Virus record (IMG/VR): IMGVR_UViG_3300037041_000435
Coordinates: 1 to 31,555 of that record
Strand: one strand, 5' to 3'
From: a virus
DNA: 31,555 nt
A program made the position numbers and the translations under genes. The notes under the pieces are model-generated. The model was not told where the DNA came from, made no database searches, and saw only the letters and a list, made by a program, of their open reading frames with translations. Position 1 is the first letter of the stretch; the number at the start of each line of letters is the position of its first letter. This document shows positions 4,775 to 31,441 of the stretch, piece after piece.

Positions 4775-6085
4775 TTAGTTATTTTCAATTCTTCTTTTAG
4801 CAATCTCCATATACTCTTCTTCCCTCTCTATTCCTATGAAGGACATACCCAAGTTCTTTGCCGCGATCCCTGTTGATCCGCTACCCATAAAAGGTTCCAG
4901 AACAGTTCCACCTTTTGGTGTTACGAGTGTGATAAGATATTCCATTAGTTTAATTGGTTTTACTGTTGGGTGAGTATTCTTTTTTGGTGGTGTAATCCAA
5001 TCAGGTGTTTCACATTTACAATCTTTTGGTTTTAACATACTTGTTCCACAATTTCCACATATTCTATCTAATCCGTGTCCTTTTTGTCTATTGGTCGTTT
5101 CTTCCATATCTTCTAACCCTGCGTTTCGTTCCTTCTTGGATACTTTGGGACAATAGAAGAACCTTGATGCTCCACCTTTATCATTAGCGTATTCTGTTAT
5201 TTTTGTTATGTTTCCCCCTACATCACATTGTGAATTACCTTTATTCTTTTTTCTTGCCTCAATACAATTATCAATACTTTTTTGAGACCTTTTACCAGTT
5301 ACTGATGTAATACCACTCTGTTCGTCCAATATCTTACCAGCCTCTTCATCAAACATAATGTTAGCAGGAAATCTACCATTTACATCAACAAACTCATCTT
5401 TACTTGAATTAGTTTCTTTATAGACACCACCATTACCATTAGCAAAGTTTTTTTGTTGATTTTTTCTTTCCTCACTACCAATTCTACAATCATCTATGTT
5501 TATTCCACCAGTTCCATGCTTCAATACATTCTCTGCGATGGACTTTTCACTTAAAGGTTTTCTTGCCATACAGATTGGTTCGTGTGCTGGTTTTAATGCT
5601 GTTCCCCAACCTTCCCATTCACTTTGTCCTTTGGTTTTATCATACTCACCTGATGTTGAATATATTTCATCTTCTATTCTATATTCATAATCGTTGAACG
5701 CTTTTGATGTTTTACCTGATCTTTCTTTACCAACAACCTCTCGTTCATTTCCTTGTATCTTATCAATCGCTTTACCGATGTTATGTGATTTGGGGAAGCC
5801 TGAACCATAGACCCACATAATCTGGTCTCTAACCTCAAATCCTGCGTCTTCTATCGCCACAGCCATTCTATGATATGTTCTTGAACCACCAAATGATAAT
5901 AGATGACCTCCAGGTTTTAATACTCTTAAACATTCTTTCCATACATCCACAGATGGAACATCGTAATCCCATTTCTTTCCCATAAAGGATAATCCGTATG
6001 GAGGGTCTGTTACAATACTATCTACCGAATTATCTGGTAATGTTTTTAGGACTTCTATACAATCCCCTAATCTTAAATCTATCAT
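4775..6085 (-). CDS. DNA adenine-N6 or cytosine-N4 methyltransferase
   Basis: A 436-residue site-specific methyltransferase. Motif IV is TDPPYG (DPPY at 27-30), and the SAM-binding motif I is FMGSGSTG near residues 399-406, followed by FIGIERE. With motif IV before motif I, this is a beta-class N4/N6 enzyme. HPTVKP before the SAM motif is typical. Between the catalytic halves is a long insertion (about residues 145-370), probably the target-recognition region. It includes a Cys cluster (CGNCG and CKC) that could bind zinc. No restriction enzyme is adjacent, so it is probably an orphan enzyme protecting phage DNA from host restriction. The base modified cannot be told from the sequence. Confidence 0.9.
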   Translation of the reverse strand: MIDLRLGDCIEVLKTLPDNSVDSIVTDPPYGLSFMGKKWDYDVPSVDVWKECLRVLKPGGHLLSFGGSRTYHRMAVAIEDAGFEVRDQIMWVYGSGFPKSHNIGKAIDKIQGNEREVVGKERSGKTSKAFNDYEYRIEDEIYSTSGEYDKTKGQSEWEGWGTALKPAHEPICMARKPLSEKSIAENVLKHGTGGINIDDCRIGSEERKNQQKNFANGNGGVYKETNSSKDEFVDVNGRFPANIMFDEEAGKILDEQSGITSVTGKRSQKSIDNCIEARKKNKGNSQCDVGGNITKITEYANDKGGASRFFYCPKVSKKERNAGLEDMEETTNRQKGHGLDRICGNCGTSMLKPKDCKCETPDWITPPKKNTHPTVKPIKLMEYLITLVTPKGGTVLEPFMGSGSTGIAAKNLGMSFIGIEREEEYMEIAKRRIENN

Positions 6086-6540
6086 CCTTTGTTTGGTACT
6101 AACTTTATTTTATGAGACATATAAACTTCAATTGCCTCTTCTTTAGTTTTATATCTACCAAGTGATTTTCTTACGCCGTCTATACTAATTGCCGTTGCCC
6201 ATTTATTTCTACTTGAATCAAACCAACAACCAATACTTTCTTTATTATGTAAGTTTTGAGATGAGGTAACACTTCTTAAATTTGATATACGATTATCACT
6301 TTTATCTTTATTGATATGATCTAACATAATAAAATCAACATTACCGTAAGTCATATAAAATGCAAAATGATGACCCCAAAGTTGGAACTTAACATTTTTA
6401 TTTATCACTCTTAAATCTTTATATCCTCTTTGATCTGTACTAATCAATTCCTTCCCTTTAGGGTTAAAAATCTTACCAGTTTTACCATCATAGGTATATC
6501 CTTTAATTTTAAGATATTCGCATTTTTCTAGTCGGTTCAT
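6082..6540 (-). CDS. HNH endonuclease with AP2-like DNA-binding domain (copy A)
   Basis: A 152-residue protein. Residues 1-50 are a short leader domain (MNRLEKCEYLK...GYTYD). The HNH core follows: GHHFAFYMTYG, LDHINKDKSDNRISNLR and a following N. A C-terminal AP2-like domain (NKWATAISIDGVRKSLGRY, KTKEEA) completes it. It overlaps the methyltransferase start by 4 bases (ATGA). It is the only leftward copy of four paralogues in the window. Free-standing HNH-AP2 proteins of phages are usually homing endonucleases that cut unoccupied alleles. The C-terminus (YMSHKIKLVPNKG) diverges from the YHI-type ending of the others. Confidence 0.85.
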   Translation of the reverse strand: MNRLEKCEYLKIKGYTYDGKTGKIFNPKGKELISTDQRGYKDLRVINKNVKFQLWGHHFAFYMTYGNVDFIMLDHINKDKSDNRISNLRSVTSSQNLHNKESIGCWFDSSRNKWATAISIDGVRKSLGRYKTKEEAIEVYMSHKIKLVPNKG

Positions 6541-8323: not shown

Positions 8324-8365
8324 TAAATTGATTTTACCAAAGTAATTGTGTATTTATTGTATATG

Positions 8366-8451
8366 GGTCGCCACCTTGAAGACATTTTACATAAACTACC
8401 CCAGTTGAAGTGATAGGTTTGGCGACCACTACATTTTGACTGGGGTTTTTT
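8366..8451 (+). terminator. Pseudoknot-capable terminator leader of the rightward operon
   Basis: ACCCCAGT (8398-8405) pairs with ACTGGGGT (8439-8446), extendable through G-U and A-U pairs, and runs into six T at 8446-8451, as an intrinsic terminator does. The loop of this hairpin contains TGGCGACC (8420-8427), which is perfectly complementary to GGTCGCCA at 8366-8373, upstream of the hairpin. The order A-B-A'-B' is that of an H-type pseudoknot, or of two competing structures. It ends 13 bases before the ATG at 8465, so it could control entry into the rightward operon. TAGGTTTG at 8414-8421 also resembles a -7 box, an alternative reading. Confidence 0.6.
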
Positions 8452-8464
8452 AATTTTCATAACT

Positions 8465-8935
8465 ATGAAAGAATTATTAAAGAAAAGAAAAGGATTTAAC
8501 TTCTATAGATCTTACTATGATGTTTTTAACCTACTATCTGAAAAAGATAGATTAGATTTTATCACTGCGATTTTAGATAAACAATTTGAAGGAAGAGATA
8601 CTGACCTTGAAGGGATGGCTTTATTGGCTTATACCAGTCAGAAACATAGTATTGATAGTCAAGTTGAAGGGTTCTTAAATAAGATGAGGGGATCACAACC
8701 CCCTTCACTACCCCCTACCGAACCCCCTTCCTATGTCTCTAATGATAGTGTTATGACTACCGAACCCCCTTCGGTACCCCCTAGCGAACCCCCTTACCAA
8801 CAAGAGAAAGAAGAAGAGAAAGAAGAAGAGAAAGAGCAAGTAAAATTAACAAAAGAGCAAGTAAAATTAACAAATGTTAGAATAAGATTTAGTGATACAC
8901 TAGATGAATTATTAAACTTACCAGATGATTTTTAA
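8465..8935 (+). CDS. DUF6291-like putative replication protein with repetitive tail
   Basis: A 156-residue protein. Residues 8-75 (FNFYRSYYDVFNLLSEKDRL, AILDKQFEG, GMALLAYTSQKHSIDSQVEGF) fit the DUF6291-type N-terminal domain seen in phage replication-initiation-like proteins. This is followed by a proline-rich segment of PPS/EPP units (about 80-115), a highly charged EEEKEEEKE stretch and a perfect two-fold repeat of KEQVKLT. The C-terminus (IRFSDTLDELLNLPDDF) may be a short interaction peptide. Lacking a polymerase or helicase, this phage would depend on such a protein to recruit host replication. It is the first gene of the rightward operon, directly behind the terminator leader. Confidence 0.6.
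   Translation: MKELLKKRKGFNFYRSYYDVFNLLSEKDRLDFITAILDKQFEGRDTDLEGMALLAYTSQKHSIDSQVEGFLNKMRGSQPPSLPPTEPPSYVSNDSVMTTEPPSVPPSEPPYQQEKEEEKEEEKEQVKLTKEQVKLTNVRIRFSDTLDELLNLPDDF
8833..8874 (+). repeat. Perfect 21-bp tandem duplication
   Basis: The unit beginning AGAGCAAGTAAAATTAAC occurs twice head to tail, at 8833-8853 and 8854-8874, and encodes a duplicated seven-residue block. It keeps the frame and lies in the charged linker, which suggests recent slippage. Just upstream, GAACCCCCTT blocks recur in the proline-rich part. Confidence 0.9.
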
Positions 8936-8959: not shown

Positions 8960-9673
8960 ATGAGTTTATACGATCAATTATACACCCAACTTAATCATTT
9001 AATATCAACACTAGATGCTTGCAATTTCGTTTCCTATGAGGTAAAAAAAGATTTAGTCCAAGATGTTATTTTTATTTTACATAAAAGGATTGAAGACGGA
9101 AAATTAGAACCTGACTTTGATACGATAAAATCTTATTCATTTATTTCATTACAGAATGCTTGTAGAGCATATCACAAAAAAGAAATTAAAAGAGAAACAC
9201 CTGTTGCTGAATTTTGGGAAGTCAAAGATAATTCAACTACGAGTGAAGACGAGGAATACAAACAATATCTTCATACAATAGTAAAATCTTACATCCAGCA
9301 AACGAAGTATAGCGAGTTTGATAAAAGGGTTGTTGAGTTGTTATTAGATGGGTTAGAGGACACACAAATCCAAATAGAGACAGGTTTAACCAAAAGACAA
9401 ATTACCAAACATAAGTTTAGGGTTAAGAACAAGTTAAAGTTTGATTATAGACGATTAGTTAAGTATATTATTAAACACATAGAGAATAAAAATATTCAAG
9501 TTCCTTGTTTTACAATTGCCGATGCTAAAAATTACCTATCACACTTAAAACCCAGAAGTGTAACCTATATGATTACAGAGGAGGGTGTTATATCTCCTTG
9601 TGGGTTTTACATAGAGGTCTTAATCAAAAAAAAAAGAAAACAAAAAAAAAATGAACAGATTAGAAAAATGTGA
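8960..9673 (+). CDS. Sigma-70-like protein, rightward operon
   Basis: About 237 residues from ATG 8960 (MSLYDQLYTQLNHL). A TTG 18 bases upstream is less likely. Residues about 25-85 (YEVKKDLVQDVIFILHKRI, SYSFISLQNACRAYHKKEI) resemble sigma region 2, with the DLVQDV and LxN patterns. Residues about 135-180 (FDKRVVELLLDGLEDTQI, GLTKRQITKHKFRVKNKL) resemble region 4 with its helix-turn-helix. A C-terminal extension is unique and ends in a Lys-rich stretch encoded by two A10 runs. It probably steers host RNA polymerase and mirrors the sigma-like gene of the divergent operon. It overlaps the HNH gene downstream by 23 bases. Confidence 0.55.
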   Translation: MSLYDQLYTQLNHLISTLDACNFVSYEVKKDLVQDVIFILHKRIEDGKLEPDFDTIKSYSFISLQNACRAYHKKEIKRETPVAEFWEVKDNSTTSEDEEYKQYLHTIVKSYIQQTKYSEFDKRVVELLLDGLEDTQIQIETGLTKRQITKHKFRVKNKLKFDYRRLVKYIIKHIENKNIQVPCFTIADAKNYLSHLKPRSVTYMITEEGVISPCGFYIEVLIKKKRKQKKNEQIRKM

Positions 9674-10103
9674 GTTATTGAAATCTAAAGGATATACCTA
9701 TAATCCTGAAACTGGTATAGTTATAGGTTATAGAGGTTTTCAAATAAAAAGTAAAAATAATGGTGGGTATAATATTATAGGTGGATCTACTTATTTTCAA
9801 GGTGATTTATTATTACATCATTTTGCTTGGTATATGACTTATGGTAATGTTGATTTTGATGAATTAGACCATATTGATACTAATAAAAATAATAATAAAA
9901 TTGATAATTTAAGAATATCAAATAGATCACAACAAAGACAAAATACAAAACATAAAGGATATACTTATGATAAAAGTTCTAATAAATGGAGAGTTCGTAT
10001 TGGTATTGATGGTAAAACAATTTCTTTAGGAAGATTTGTGACTGAAGAAGAAGCGAGAAACACTTATCTACAAGCAAAAGAAAAATACCATATACACAGA
10101 TAA
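9651..10103 (+). CDS. HNH endonuclease with AP2-like domain (copy B)
   Basis: A 150-residue protein, MNRLEKCELLKSKGYTYNPE, with HNH core HHFAWYMTYG, ELDHIDTNKNNNKIDNLR and N, and an AP2-like end (NKWRVRIGIDGKTISLGRF, EEEARNTYLQAKEKYH). The ATG is the last A of an A10 run and overlaps the sigma-like gene by 23 bases in another frame, as expected of an insertion that fused to the operon's end. Copies B and C share the most C-terminal sequence. It is probably a homing endonuclease, and the AP2-like domain would contact DNA. Confidence 0.87.
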   Translation: MNRLEKCELLKSKGYTYNPETGIVIGYRGFQIKSKNNGGYNIIGGSTYFQGDLLLHHFAWYMTYGNVDFDELDHIDTNKNNNKIDNLRISNRSQQRQNTKHKGYTYDKSSNKWRVRIGIDGKTISLGRFVTEEEARNTYLQAKEKYHIHR

Positions 10104-10121: not shown

Positions 10122-10205
10122 ATGAATAAATTAGAACTACTATTGGCTATATTAACTTGTGCTGATGATATAGAAGAAGATACTTTACAAGACGAAGAAG
10201 AATAA
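10122..10205 (+). CDS. Tiny acidic peptide (27 aa)
   Basis: ATG at 10122 opens MNKLELLLAILTCADD and ends in a run of acidic residues (EEDTLQDEEE). A hydrophobic helical start and an acidic tail, behind an A/G-rich leader (AAAAGAAAAAGAAAAG), make it a plausible small peptide, perhaps inhibiting a host DNA-binding protein. It is short, so chance cannot be excluded. Confidence 0.4.
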   Translation: MNKLELLLAILTCADDIEEDTLQDEEE

Positions 10206-10231
10206 ATATATTTATCATAAGTGTTATTCAT

Positions 10232-10283
10232 ACCCCCTCTACTCCTTATCTTGTTGGAATGTTTGTCTTCTGGTAGGGGGGGT
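10232..10283 (+). other. Long-loop GC stem
   Basis: ACCCCCT at 10232-10238 can pair with AGGGGG(GG)T at 10275-10283 across a loop of about 36 bases. No U-tract follows. It may be a processing or stability element after the small peptide gene. It resembles the other C-run/G-run stems of this genome. Confidence 0.3.
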
Positions 10284-10300
10284 TCTATTATATGTTAAAT

Positions 10301-10346: not shown

Positions 10347-10814
10347 ATGACGAGATTAGAGAAGTGCGAGATATTAAAATCCAAAGGATATACTTATGAT
10401 CCTGAAACTGGAAAAATCTTTGGTATTTATGGTAAAGAAATAAAAAGAATTAAAGATGGTTATATTTACATTAAAGGATCTAAATTATTCGATGGGTCTG
10501 TATTAGGACATCATTTTGCGTGGTATATGACTTATGGTAATGTTGATTTTGATAGATTAGATCACATTAATGAAGAAAAAAAAGGCATTGAGGGTAGAAG
10601 TGATAATCGTATATGTAATTTAAGGATTGTAACAAATCAACAAAATTGTTTTAATACAAATGCTAAAGGATATTATCTACATAAACCATCTAATAAATGG
10701 CTTTCACATATAGGTATTAACTATAAACAAATACATTTGGGGTTATTCAATACTGAAGAAGAAGCAAGAATTGCTTATCTTGAAGCCAAGAAAAAATATC
10801 ATATTATTGATTAA
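10347..10814 (+). CDS. HNH endonuclease with AP2-like domain (copy C)
   Basis: A 155-residue protein, MTRLEKCEILKSKGYTYDPE. The HNH core is GHHFAWYMTYG, then RLDHINEEKKG with a small insertion (IEGRSDNRICNLR), then N. The AP2-like end (NKWLSHIGINYKQIHLGLF, EEEARIAYLEAKKKYH) closely resembles copy B. It stands alone after the terminator. TATATTTG at 10335-10342 matches the Bacteroidota -7 box immediately before the ATG, so it may be transcribed independently with a very short leader. Its stop meets the KTSC gene's stop from the other strand (4-base overlap). Confidence 0.87.
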   Translation: MTRLEKCEILKSKGYTYDPETGKIFGIYGKEIKRIKDGYIYIKGSKLFDGSVLGHHFAWYMTYGNVDFDRLDHINEEKKGIEGRSDNRICNLRIVTNQQNCFNTNAKGYYLHKPSNKWLSHIGINYKQIHLGLFNTEEEARIAYLEAKKKYHIID

Positions 10815-23860: not shown

Positions 23861-24304
23861 ATGAACCGACTTGAAAAATGCCAATACTTAAAAGAAAAAG
23901 ATTACACATATGATCCTGAAACTGGTGATGTATATGGACCCAAAAAAAATAAAATAAAATCTACAGATGGAAAATATTTGTATATTAGATTGCCAAATCA
24001 TACTAATTTAGCTCACCATCACTATGCGTGGTTTATGACTTATGGTAATGTTGATTTTATTGAATTAGACCATAAAAATAGAAATAAAAAAGACAATCGT
24101 ATTTCTAATTTAAGAATACTTAATAGATCAGAGCAACAACATAATAGAGAAGCTAAAGGTTATTATTTCTATAAAAGAATTGGTAAATATATGTCTCGTA
24201 TACAAGTTCATAATAAAACCATATTTTTAGGTTATTACGATACTGAAGAAGAGGCATCTAAATCTTATCTTGATGCTAAAAAGATATACCATACATCTTA
24301 TTAA
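23861..24304 (+). CDS. HNH endonuclease with AP2-like domain (copy D)
   Basis: A 147-residue protein, MNRLEKCQYLKEKDYTYDPE. The HNH core is HHHYAWFMTYG, IELDHKNRNKKDNRISNLR and N. The AP2-like end is KYMSRIQVHNKTIFLGYYD, then EEEASKSYLDAKKIYH. It lies alone on the plus strand between two leftward tail genes, with 57 bases before its ATG and 7 bases to the opposing stop, as expected of a free-standing homing gene inserted between essential genes. It keeps the AWFMTYGNVDF core shared by all four paralogues. Confidence 0.87.
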   Translation: MNRLEKCQYLKEKDYTYDPETGDVYGPKKNKIKSTDGKYLYIRLPNHTNLAHHHYAWFMTYGNVDFIELDHKNRNKKDNRISNLRILNRSEQQHNREAKGYYFYKRIGKYMSRIQVHNKTIFLGYYDTEEEASKSYLDAKKIYHTSY

Positions 24305-29860: not shown

Positions 29861-31441
29861 TTATGAATAAGTATTTCTACCTAATGTAGTTTGGAATGTA
29901 TTAACTATCCCCTCCATAGTAGATGCTTCTGCTGGTGTTAAATAATCTGCAATATAGAAGAATTGAAATCTTAAATATCCACCTCTATAACCAGGAGCTA
30001 AATTTAAGCTTCCAAGATATATATTACCATTTGGTCTTGCTGTTAAATCAGTACCTGTTGTGATTTCAGTATTATTCCATCTAACATAAGTTGAACCTGA
30101 ATTATTACCTTGAGTAAATTGACCTTTAAGTGTTGCTGCCGTAATTGATGTAATAACTAATTCATTAACTCTTGAGAATTGATAAGTTTTAAGCGTTGTT
30201 GAGGTTTCCCAATTTAATCCTACAAAACTTTCAGGAGAACCACCACCATAAGCACCATACAAATAGTTTTCAAGACCCCAAGAAGACCTTAAGTTTACAA
30301 AATAAGACCCAATTGTTGATGTAATACCTGTTAAATTAGTTGCCGCATTAAAGTAAGTATTCGCATAATTTGTTCCAACTCCTTCATCGTTATTTATAGT
30401 TATACCACTCACATCAAAACTGCATGTCCCGTTATATGTTAATCTAAATGCTCCGTTTGTATTAATAGGATTAATTGCATTAAACTTATTACTATCGGCT
30501 GTTGAACCTAACATAGGATACATTACTTTAAGTTTAGTATAAAGTGACGCAGATTTTAATGATGTGAATAATGTATTTGTCGCTCCTGATATAGTGGCAT
30601 CTAATGTCCCTCCTGCTGAAACCATAGCCGATAGATAAGTAGCCGCATCAGGATCAATCGCTGGTGCTGGTGAAGCACTTGGTGTAGGTGTAATCGTAGG
30701 AGTTACAGTATTAGTTGGTGTAGGGGTTGGTGTCGGTAAAGGACAAGTTCCAATATCTGTAATTGTTCCAGGGCTACCTGATTGTGATACTGACCCTTGT
30801 TTAGCACAAATATTAGTTGGGGTATTACCTATAAATGTTGTGCCAGCTGTTCCATCACAATTAGTCCAATTAAAAGTAGTTCCAAAAAAACTAGCACCGA
30901 CTATAGTATAAGTTCTACAATCTCTTGGATCTGTAGGAGTTGGGGTAGGGGTTACAGTATTCGTTGGTGTGACTGTTGGTGTTGGTGTAACTGTAGTTGT
31001 AACACTTGGTGTTGGGGTCACAGTTGAAGTAGGGGTCACAGTTGGTGTAGGTGTTAATGTTGCTGTAACACTTGGTGTTGGCGTATTAGTTGGTGTTATA
31101 GTTGGTGTTGGGGTGTTAGTTGGCGTGGGTGTTGGTGTAACAGGTGTTCCAACCAAATACTCACCACAATACTGATAGAATGTGTAATAATCGTAAATAC
31201 GAGCATCATTTGTATTCTTGTAAAAAGTATATTCATCCCACACTTGAGGATAAGTTCCTTGTAATGCCTTAAACCACTCATAACGAGTTGTATTGTGGTA
31301 TGTGAAGAAATCATATTGACTAGCCAATACTTGTCCATTAGACATTACCATTCCCTTCCAAAACTCATATTGGTTTGTTGCTTGTGTATTACCACTTACA
31401 ACATCCCAACTTTGCCAAAAACCATTTAGATCTATACTCAT
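29861..31441 (-). CDS. Modular virion protein with two Pro-Thr linkers and a C-terminal display domain
   Basis: A 526-residue protein. Residues 1-98 have repeated aromatic units (YEFWKGM, YDFFTYHN, YEWFKAL, DYYTFYQYCGEY) and probably anchor it in the neck or tail. Linker 1 (99-170) and linker 2 (234-261) are TPTPT tracts. Between them, 174-233 is a four-Cys beta domain (DCRTYTIVGASFFG, CDGTAG, ICAKQGSV, DIGTC) found in tail proteins of many aquatic phages. Residues 262-526 form a larger domain (TYLSAMVSAGGTLDATISG, LKVMYPMLGS, RGGYLRFQFFYIADYLTPAE) seen in tail or display proteins. The start follows AATATTTACAGGT. The first codons recur at the left window edge. Confidence 0.7.
   Translation of the reverse strand: MSIDLNGFWQSWDVVSGNTQATNQYEFWKGMVMSNGQVLASQYDFFTYHNTTRYEWFKALQGTYPQVWDEYTFYKNTNDARIYDYYTFYQYCGEYLVGTPVTPTPTPTNTPTPTITPTNTPTPSVTATLTPTPTVTPTSTVTPTPSVTTTVTPTPTVTPTNTVTPTPTPTDPRDCRTYTIVGASFFGTTFNWTNCDGTAGTTFIGNTPTNICAKQGSVSQSGSPGTITDIGTCPLPTPTPTPTNTVTPTITPTPSASPAPAIDPDAATYLSAMVSAGGTLDATISGATNTLFTSLKSASLYTKLKVMYPMLGSTADSNKFNAINPINTNGAFRLTYNGTCSFDVSGITINNDEGVGTNYANTYFNAATNLTGITSTIGSYFVNLRSSWGLENYLYGAYGGGSPESFVGLNWETSTTLKTYQFSRVNELVITSITAATLKGQFTQGNNSGSTYVRWNNTEITTGTDLTARPNGNIYLGSLNLAPGYRGGYLRFQFFYIADYLTPAEASTMEGIVNTFQTTLGRNTYS
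30659..30742 (-). repeat. Pro-Thr linker 2
   Basis: Encodes about 28 residues of TPTPT/TNTVTPT units between the Cys domain and the C-terminal display domain. It has the same sequence style as the linker at 924-1250. Confidence 0.85.
30932..31147 (-). repeat. Pro-Thr linker 1
   Basis: Encodes about 72 residues of TPTPT, TNTPT and SVTPT units following the N-terminal anchor. With 30659-30742 and 924-1250 it gives three similar tracts in one genome, all in the same direction. Confidence 0.9.

Follow-up and report, generated by a model that had tools for sequence, protein, structure and literature searches.

The window analysed in this study is a phage sequence of 31,555 bases. Directly before the first gene of its rightward operon, we found a leader in which the loop of an intrinsic terminator can pair with the 5′ region of the same transcript. 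In our judgement, this leader probably acts in cis as a transcription attenuator of a replication/sigma-factor operon, in which the pairing of segments A and A′ would be the antiterminator. We consider it likely that it represents a real, selected and apparently undescribed leader class that acts like a terminator/antiterminator attenuator. It would be a natural example of a terminator loop that pairs with the 5′ region of a transcript as a decision element. In such a switch, geometry and not letters would be decisive, and the layout recurs before the replication operons of unrelated phages and of cultured flavobacterial phages. Since the decisive helix changes its letters freely, leaders of this kind are easily missed by sequence-profile methods such as Rfam. 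In addition, gene timing in Bacteroidota phages is little known, and the leader offers a concrete and testable control point.

The leader and its place in the phage genome

The four segments are interleaved in the order A-B-A′-B′, and both A/A′ and B/B′ are perfect in the window according to the sequence and a repeat finder (Table 1). They lie exactly where a sequence-only reading of this DNA had placed them. That reading had also recognized an intrinsic terminator ahead of the rightward operon. Indeed, a stable stem is followed by a U tract there, and the stem is longer than the 8 bp first described: it has 15 bp including G-U pairs (z = -5.3 versus shuffles), and the first T of the tract (8446) pairs with A8398. 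Furthermore, the loop that holds A′ is closed by helix C, which has 3 bp in the window (TAG/CTA) and 4 bp in most homologues. Between the end of the T tract and the ATG there are about 13 nt in the window and roughly 5-17 nt in relatives; without a further promoter, the operon would thus depend on read-through.

Table 1. Features of the leader, its predicted promoter and the first two operon genes in the window
Feature	Position	Strand	Basis and remarks
-35/-33-like element TTGA	8328-8331	+	predicted; TTG 37-38 nt before A kept in homologues inspected
-10/-7-like element TATTTATTG	8351-8359	+	promoter-box scan; Bacteroidota consensus TAnnTTTG
A, putative antiterminator 5′ arm GGTCGCCA	8366-8373	+	sequence, repeat finder, covariation; predicted 5′ end of transcript
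Linker L1	8374-8397	+	CC right after A may add pairs with GG 8416-8417 (sequence, fold)
B, terminator-stem 5′ arm	8398-8412	+	core 8398-8405 = ACCCCAGT; fold and covariation
Helix C 5′ arm, TAG	8414-8416	+	closes A′ loop; UAGG in most homologues
A′ TGGCGACC, inside terminator loop	8420-8427	+	sequence, repeat finder, covariation
Helix C 3′ arm, CTA	8429-8431	+	covariation alignment
B′, terminator-stem 3′ arm	8432-8446	+	core 8439-8446 = ACTGGGGT; fold
T tract of intrinsic terminator	8446-8451	+	sequence; six T in 9/9 homologues
First operon gene, DUF6291-like	8465-8935	+	PF19808, E 1.1e-5, 25.9 bits, below cut-off 27.2
Second operon gene, sigma-factor-like	8960-9673	+	phrog_1740, E 1.7e-5

The -10/-7 promoter consensus of Bacteroidota is TAnnTTTG. 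Relatives carry the boxes TATATTTA/TATATTTG at 4-31 nt before A. At the site of the window's -10/-7-like box, TATTTATT, TATATATTG or a similar sequence is present in the other window-family leaders. Most leaders have a TAnnTTTA/G box 4-31 nt ahead of A (in L052, the automatic box match differs from the likely box). The position of TTG(A), 37-38 nt before A, and the GG with which A begins suggest that the RNA probably begins with A itself. The sequence-only reading depended on a transcript start that is not downstream of 8373, and the predicted promoter puts the start of window-family transcripts probably at or about the first base of A. Meanwhile, in phi13:2, 11b and other leaders outside the window family, the predicted start precedes A by several nt.

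The first 60 bases of the window recur at 31,405, which makes it probable that the window is complete and has direct terminal repeats of about 150 bases. Its terminase is 50% identical to Flavobacterium phage terminases, so the host is probably a flavobacterium-like member of Bacteroidota. PHROGs searches identified packaging, portal, tail, methyltransferase and HNH genes, and none of the scanned proteins was identified as a DNA polymerase, primase or integrase. Among these proteins, the DUF6291-like gene was the sole replication-type candidate of this tailed-phage window. Relatives of the first operon gene are annotated as replication protein, and a related-locus search with this gene returned no relatives. 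In addition, related genes resembling HNH/AP2 homing endonucleases are dispersed in the window (9651-10103, 10347-10814, 6082-6540 and 23861-24304), and their positions differ in relatives.

Covariation of the helices and recurrence of the layout

The window family comprises nine leaders of metagenomic phages, namely the window and L016, L006, L022, L052, L074, L078, L082 and L091. The eight relatives were found through pattern scans and a search with a neighbouring 173-aa protein; an independent relaxed pattern gave no additional window-family leaders. A covariation model with A/A′ alone paired (R1) gave 72-109 bits for the homologous leaders, and the next match had 22 bits. In a six-sequence MAFFT alignment, 99.2% of A/A′ and B/B′ was paired, with 12 two-sided changes versus 3.5 in shuffles. 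The nine-sequence alignment was fitted to the A/A′ model only, and not to B/B′ or helix C. For the three helices together, 98.1% of its cells were paired, and there were 21 two-sided changes versus 5.8 in shuffles and at most 2 in slid controls.

With regard to the single helices in the nine leaders, A/A′ was 97.2% paired with two-sided changes at five of its eight pairs. B/B′ (99.1%) and helix C (97.2%) were kept by one- or two-sided changes, and UA was replaced by AU in helix C of two leaders. Mean pairwise identity was 0.47 at the five inner A pairs and 0.86 at the B arms. As judged from these alignments, the covariation of A/A′ is unambiguous, the pairing being kept while its letters turn over, and selection on both helices is shown by computation. 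Absence of compensatory change in A/A′ among homologues had been named in advance as evidence against the element, and such change is present. The nine homologues thus bear out a real, conserved, four-strand leader before the rightward operon of a Bacteroidota phage. Another candidate helix, P3, in which L1 would pair with the distal B arm, seemed sound in folds of single sequences but was dropped, as it showed no covariation.

The sequence of the window alone is borderline against chance and only suggestive: the exact pattern (8+8 perfect, before TTTT) occurs once in the window and seven times in 100 dinucleotide-preserving shuffles, or about 0.07 expected per shuffle. Under a 7+7 rule, the layout was found 16 times over 642 kb of the wider phage family versus 0, 0 and 0 times in block shuffles. 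A mirror control with the partner downstream gave five matches, so single matches need support. The search rules were loosened from scan to scan, most matches to loose terminator patterns were attributed to chance, and a 7-bp match in L009 was left as probable chance. A BLAST search of the window leader against 50,697 phages gave no match, and that of the L016 leader gave only short chance matches. The three matches of a pattern scan of GTDB genomes were all false, and model R1 had no match in 395 Bacteroidota genomes.

Eleven further leaders share the architecture only, with unrelated letters, and seven of them lie upstream of DUF6291/replication-protein operons. In the 642-kb search, L112, L120, L127 and L128 had the same layout in unrelated sequence, and a sigma-like gene lies downstream of the first three. 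The one match in 440 kb of unrelated contigs was L023, with a DUF6291-like gene about 12 nt beyond the end of its T tract; the upstream regions of other DUF6291 genes were therefore examined. The layout was found in two Bacteroidota genomes: in L142, A/A′ has 10 bp and the stem 17 bp, about 20 nt before the DUF6291 gene, and in L141 a GIY-YIG gene lies between the leader and the DUF6291 gene. The cultured phages with this layout are Cellulophaga phi13:2, Flavobacterium 11b, Muminvirus tooticki, Lillamyvirus hemulen and lillamy, and Elemovirus elemoA. The DUF6291 gene of these phages carries the annotation replication protein or, in most of them, has primase/helicase or replication genes behind it; a single short gene stands between it and the leader in tooticki, hemulen, lillamy, 11b and elemoA. 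The distance from the end of the T tract to a start codon is at most about 20 nt in nearly all DUF6291-type cases.

Shuffled DUF6291 upstream regions gave 3 matches in 1800. DUF6291 genes in mid-operon were without a leader, as were those of Riemerella and Vibrio phages, and the whole genomes of Fpv5, P12024S, EMB2, PM708P3 and BT2 gave two weak matches only, both in Fpv5. Downstream of the leader there may be a DUF6291 gene, a winged-helix gene, or a structured RNA and then a sigma gene. Thus, the leader appears to be a portable device that is not bound to one protein. The Rfam gathering threshold was reached neither by the window, nor by the leader alone, nor by the relatives. Together with the same layout before the replication operons of cultured flavobacterial phages, this favours the earlier suggestion of an undescribed leader class.

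Folding, the proposed mechanism and other explanations

Folds were computed for 13 leaders and 7 more with a program that scores no pseudoknots. When the RNA ended 3 nt after A′, the minimum-energy fold contained all A/A′ pairs, with B in the loop, in 19 of the 20 leaders; in L141 it contained six of the seven A/A′ pairs. When the RNA was extended to the T tract, the terminator fold without A/A′ was obtained in all 20. As modelled, this succession of folds would be that of an attenuator with A/A′ as antiterminator. Because one search rule served either to find or to check the eleven architecture-only leaders, these folds are to some extent expected for them. In several leaders (e.g., L006, L022 and L127), the two states differ by no more than a few kcal/mol. 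L023 and L082 are far more stable as terminators (-37.6 versus -7.6 kcal/mol in L023), so read-through there would have to be kinetic. In L112 and L120, A/A′ has 11-12 bp and the gap between A′ and B′ is just 1-3 nt, which is too short to cross such a helix; A/A′ and B/B′ therefore cannot both form fully. The modelled geometry argues for mutual exclusion clearly in L112 and L120 only. The shorter helix (8 bp) and wider gap (about 6 nt) of the window family would sterically allow both helices to coexist as a pseudoknot.

We propose the following mechanism. RNA polymerase would start at or just before A. As A′ emerges from the polymerase, the A/A′ hairpin would close and trap B in its loop. If this hairpin lasts until the polymerase has passed the T tract, the operon would be transcribed. 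If A/A′ fails or is prevented, B/B′ would pair, helix C would close the A′ loop, and transcription would stop 10-20 nt before the first gene. Our best guess for the trigger is anything that occupies A or slows its pairing, such as a protein, another RNA or polymerase speed. From the modelled folds, we infer which state would terminate, and that termination would be partial and regulated, with A/A′ favouring read-through. As in an attenuator, an intrinsic terminator stands before the first gene and both pairings are kept by compensatory change. Against this reading, helix C, which presents A′ as a loop, would be superfluous for a plain antiterminator.

The presentation of A′ as an 8-11 nt loop by helix C would suit a small stable phage RNA of about 86 nt, in which a pseudoknot between the 5′ end and the terminator loop protects against decay and for which read-through into the operon is incidental. 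Such an RNA would have its own promoter and terminator, as predicted here with the start at A and a strong terminator. Furthermore, there is a precedent in prophage IsrK, which shows that a terminated leader can be both sRNA and mRNA leader (PMC4825925). However, the T tract lies close to the start codon in nearly all DUF6291-type cases, full A/A′ and B/B′ are incompatible in L112 and L120, and no target-binding sequence is conserved across classes. We regard this explanation as unlikely, though one to be taken seriously. It is also conceivable, but quite unlikely, that the terminated leader displays A′ in the helix-C loop and pairs in trans with A of new transcripts of the same phage, which would block the antiterminator and shut the replication operon. 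If this were true, each phage would silence only itself and its like, because the A/A′ letters differ between relatives, and the leader would be an RNA-only dosage sensor or a superinfection-exclusion code.

The window family also keeps linker letters outside the helices (GAAGATATT, GTTGRAATG and CTAC). These could be a binding site at which a ligand or protein stabilizes the A/A′ form or the pseudoknot, as in a riboswitch. Nevertheless, the same letters are missing from the eleven other leaders, there is no Rfam match, and the genes downstream are replication or sigma genes and not metabolic ones, which makes a riboswitch-like leader decidedly improbable. The riboswitch considered in the sequence-only reading found no support in the form of a metabolite riboswitch, as there is neither an aptamer core common to the classes nor a metabolic gene.

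In addition, a ribosome that translates a short leader ORF through A or B could pick the helix. In phi13:2, an ORF of 31 codons spans the leader and overlaps the gene start, and short ORFs occur in some other leaders. Yet there is no common ORF, frames and peptides differ elsewhere, and L162 and L163 are without any ORF of at least 8 codons; we consider this control very improbable. A conserved leader peptide was rejected, as no translated leader ORF is conserved among the leaders. Finally, a chance pairing next to an ordinary terminator, with about 0.07 such patterns expected per shuffled window, has next to no probability left, since it is already refuted by the compensatory A/A′ changes aligned across nine homologues, and the layout recurs in unrelated phages.

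Relation to known systems and neighbouring RNA elements

Like the trp/TRAP (Bacillus) and rplJL attenuators, the leader has two predicted competing hairpins before an operon, one of them an intrinsic terminator. However, the putative antiterminator strand here pairs with the loop and not with the stem of the terminator, and the operon is a phage replication operon. In phage P4 CI RNA, P1 c4 and plasmid pIP501 RNA III, a separate antisense RNA governs attenuation. As proposed for the leader, RNA-RNA pairing governs early termination before replication or antirepressor genes in these systems, whereas the pairing partners here lie within one leader.

By analogy, the nearest published idea is the fhsA motif of Leptotrichia, in which a terminator stem-loop is predicted to pair with upstream RNA and this pairing is proposed to prevent termination (PMC11109978). 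The fhsA motif is one sequence family of 52 in cellular bacteria, pairs with a preceding hairpin and is associated with a folate gene. In contrast, the partner here is the linear 5′ region, the sequences turn over, and the genes are phage replication genes. The leader is set apart from the fhsA motif by description, with other downstream genes (no fhs) and another layout.

The put RNA of HK022 consists of two plain stem-loops that bind the zinc-binding domain of the polymerase (beta′) and act on distant terminators (PMC9378689). The leader resembles it as an RNA of about 70 nt right after an early phage promoter that is expected to favour read-through, but it contains its own terminator. The proposal of a put-like RNA in the sequence-only reading was thus abandoned: the fold is A/A′ or the terminator hairpin and not two stem-loops, and a terminator lies inside the element. 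The prophage leader IsrK of Gifsy-1 likewise has short terminated and read-through forms, but its target is the translation of a downstream ORF, in trans, and the abstract of its description mentions no terminator-loop pairing (PMC4825925). In the open-access literature, we found no description in phages of a layout with terminator loop and 5′ region.

Some other RNA elements were observed near these genes. A conserved non-coding RNA of ~200 nt lies before the sigma-like gene in L005 (4370-4555, -), L072 (1375-1568, -), L127 (4722-4923, +) and L112 (4356-4556, -), and in further related phages (L075, L076, L096, L131, L108 and L115). It has no Rfam match, and RNAalifold gave 27 pairs, 11 of them with two-sided changes. 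Its AAGUC/AAGUU segment can pair with either flanking GACUU/AACUU copy, and the coordinated change of all three between subgroups points to a two-state switch.

In the Nitratiruptor phages NrS-3 (L146) and NrS-2 (L159), which are identical there, a hairpin lies within about 110 nt before the DUF6291 gene. Its loop GTTGGTCCTT is complementary over 10 bp to AAGGACCAAC in the ribosome-binding region before the DUF6291 start; by its sequence, this hairpin is possibly a translational counterpart. At 10185-10290 of the window, the terminator that ends the operon (CCCCCTCTAC/GTAGGGGGGG) encloses a loop of 30 nt. This loop contains TCTTGT, and its complement ACAAGA occurs close to the stop codon of the conserved short ORF immediately upstream. 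The arrangement is similar in L007, L009 and L072, and this match is probably due to chance. Meanwhile, the ORF of the phi13:2 leader (L161) extends across the entire leader to a stop codon slightly inside the DUF6291 gene, a position that makes translational coupling possible in that phage only.
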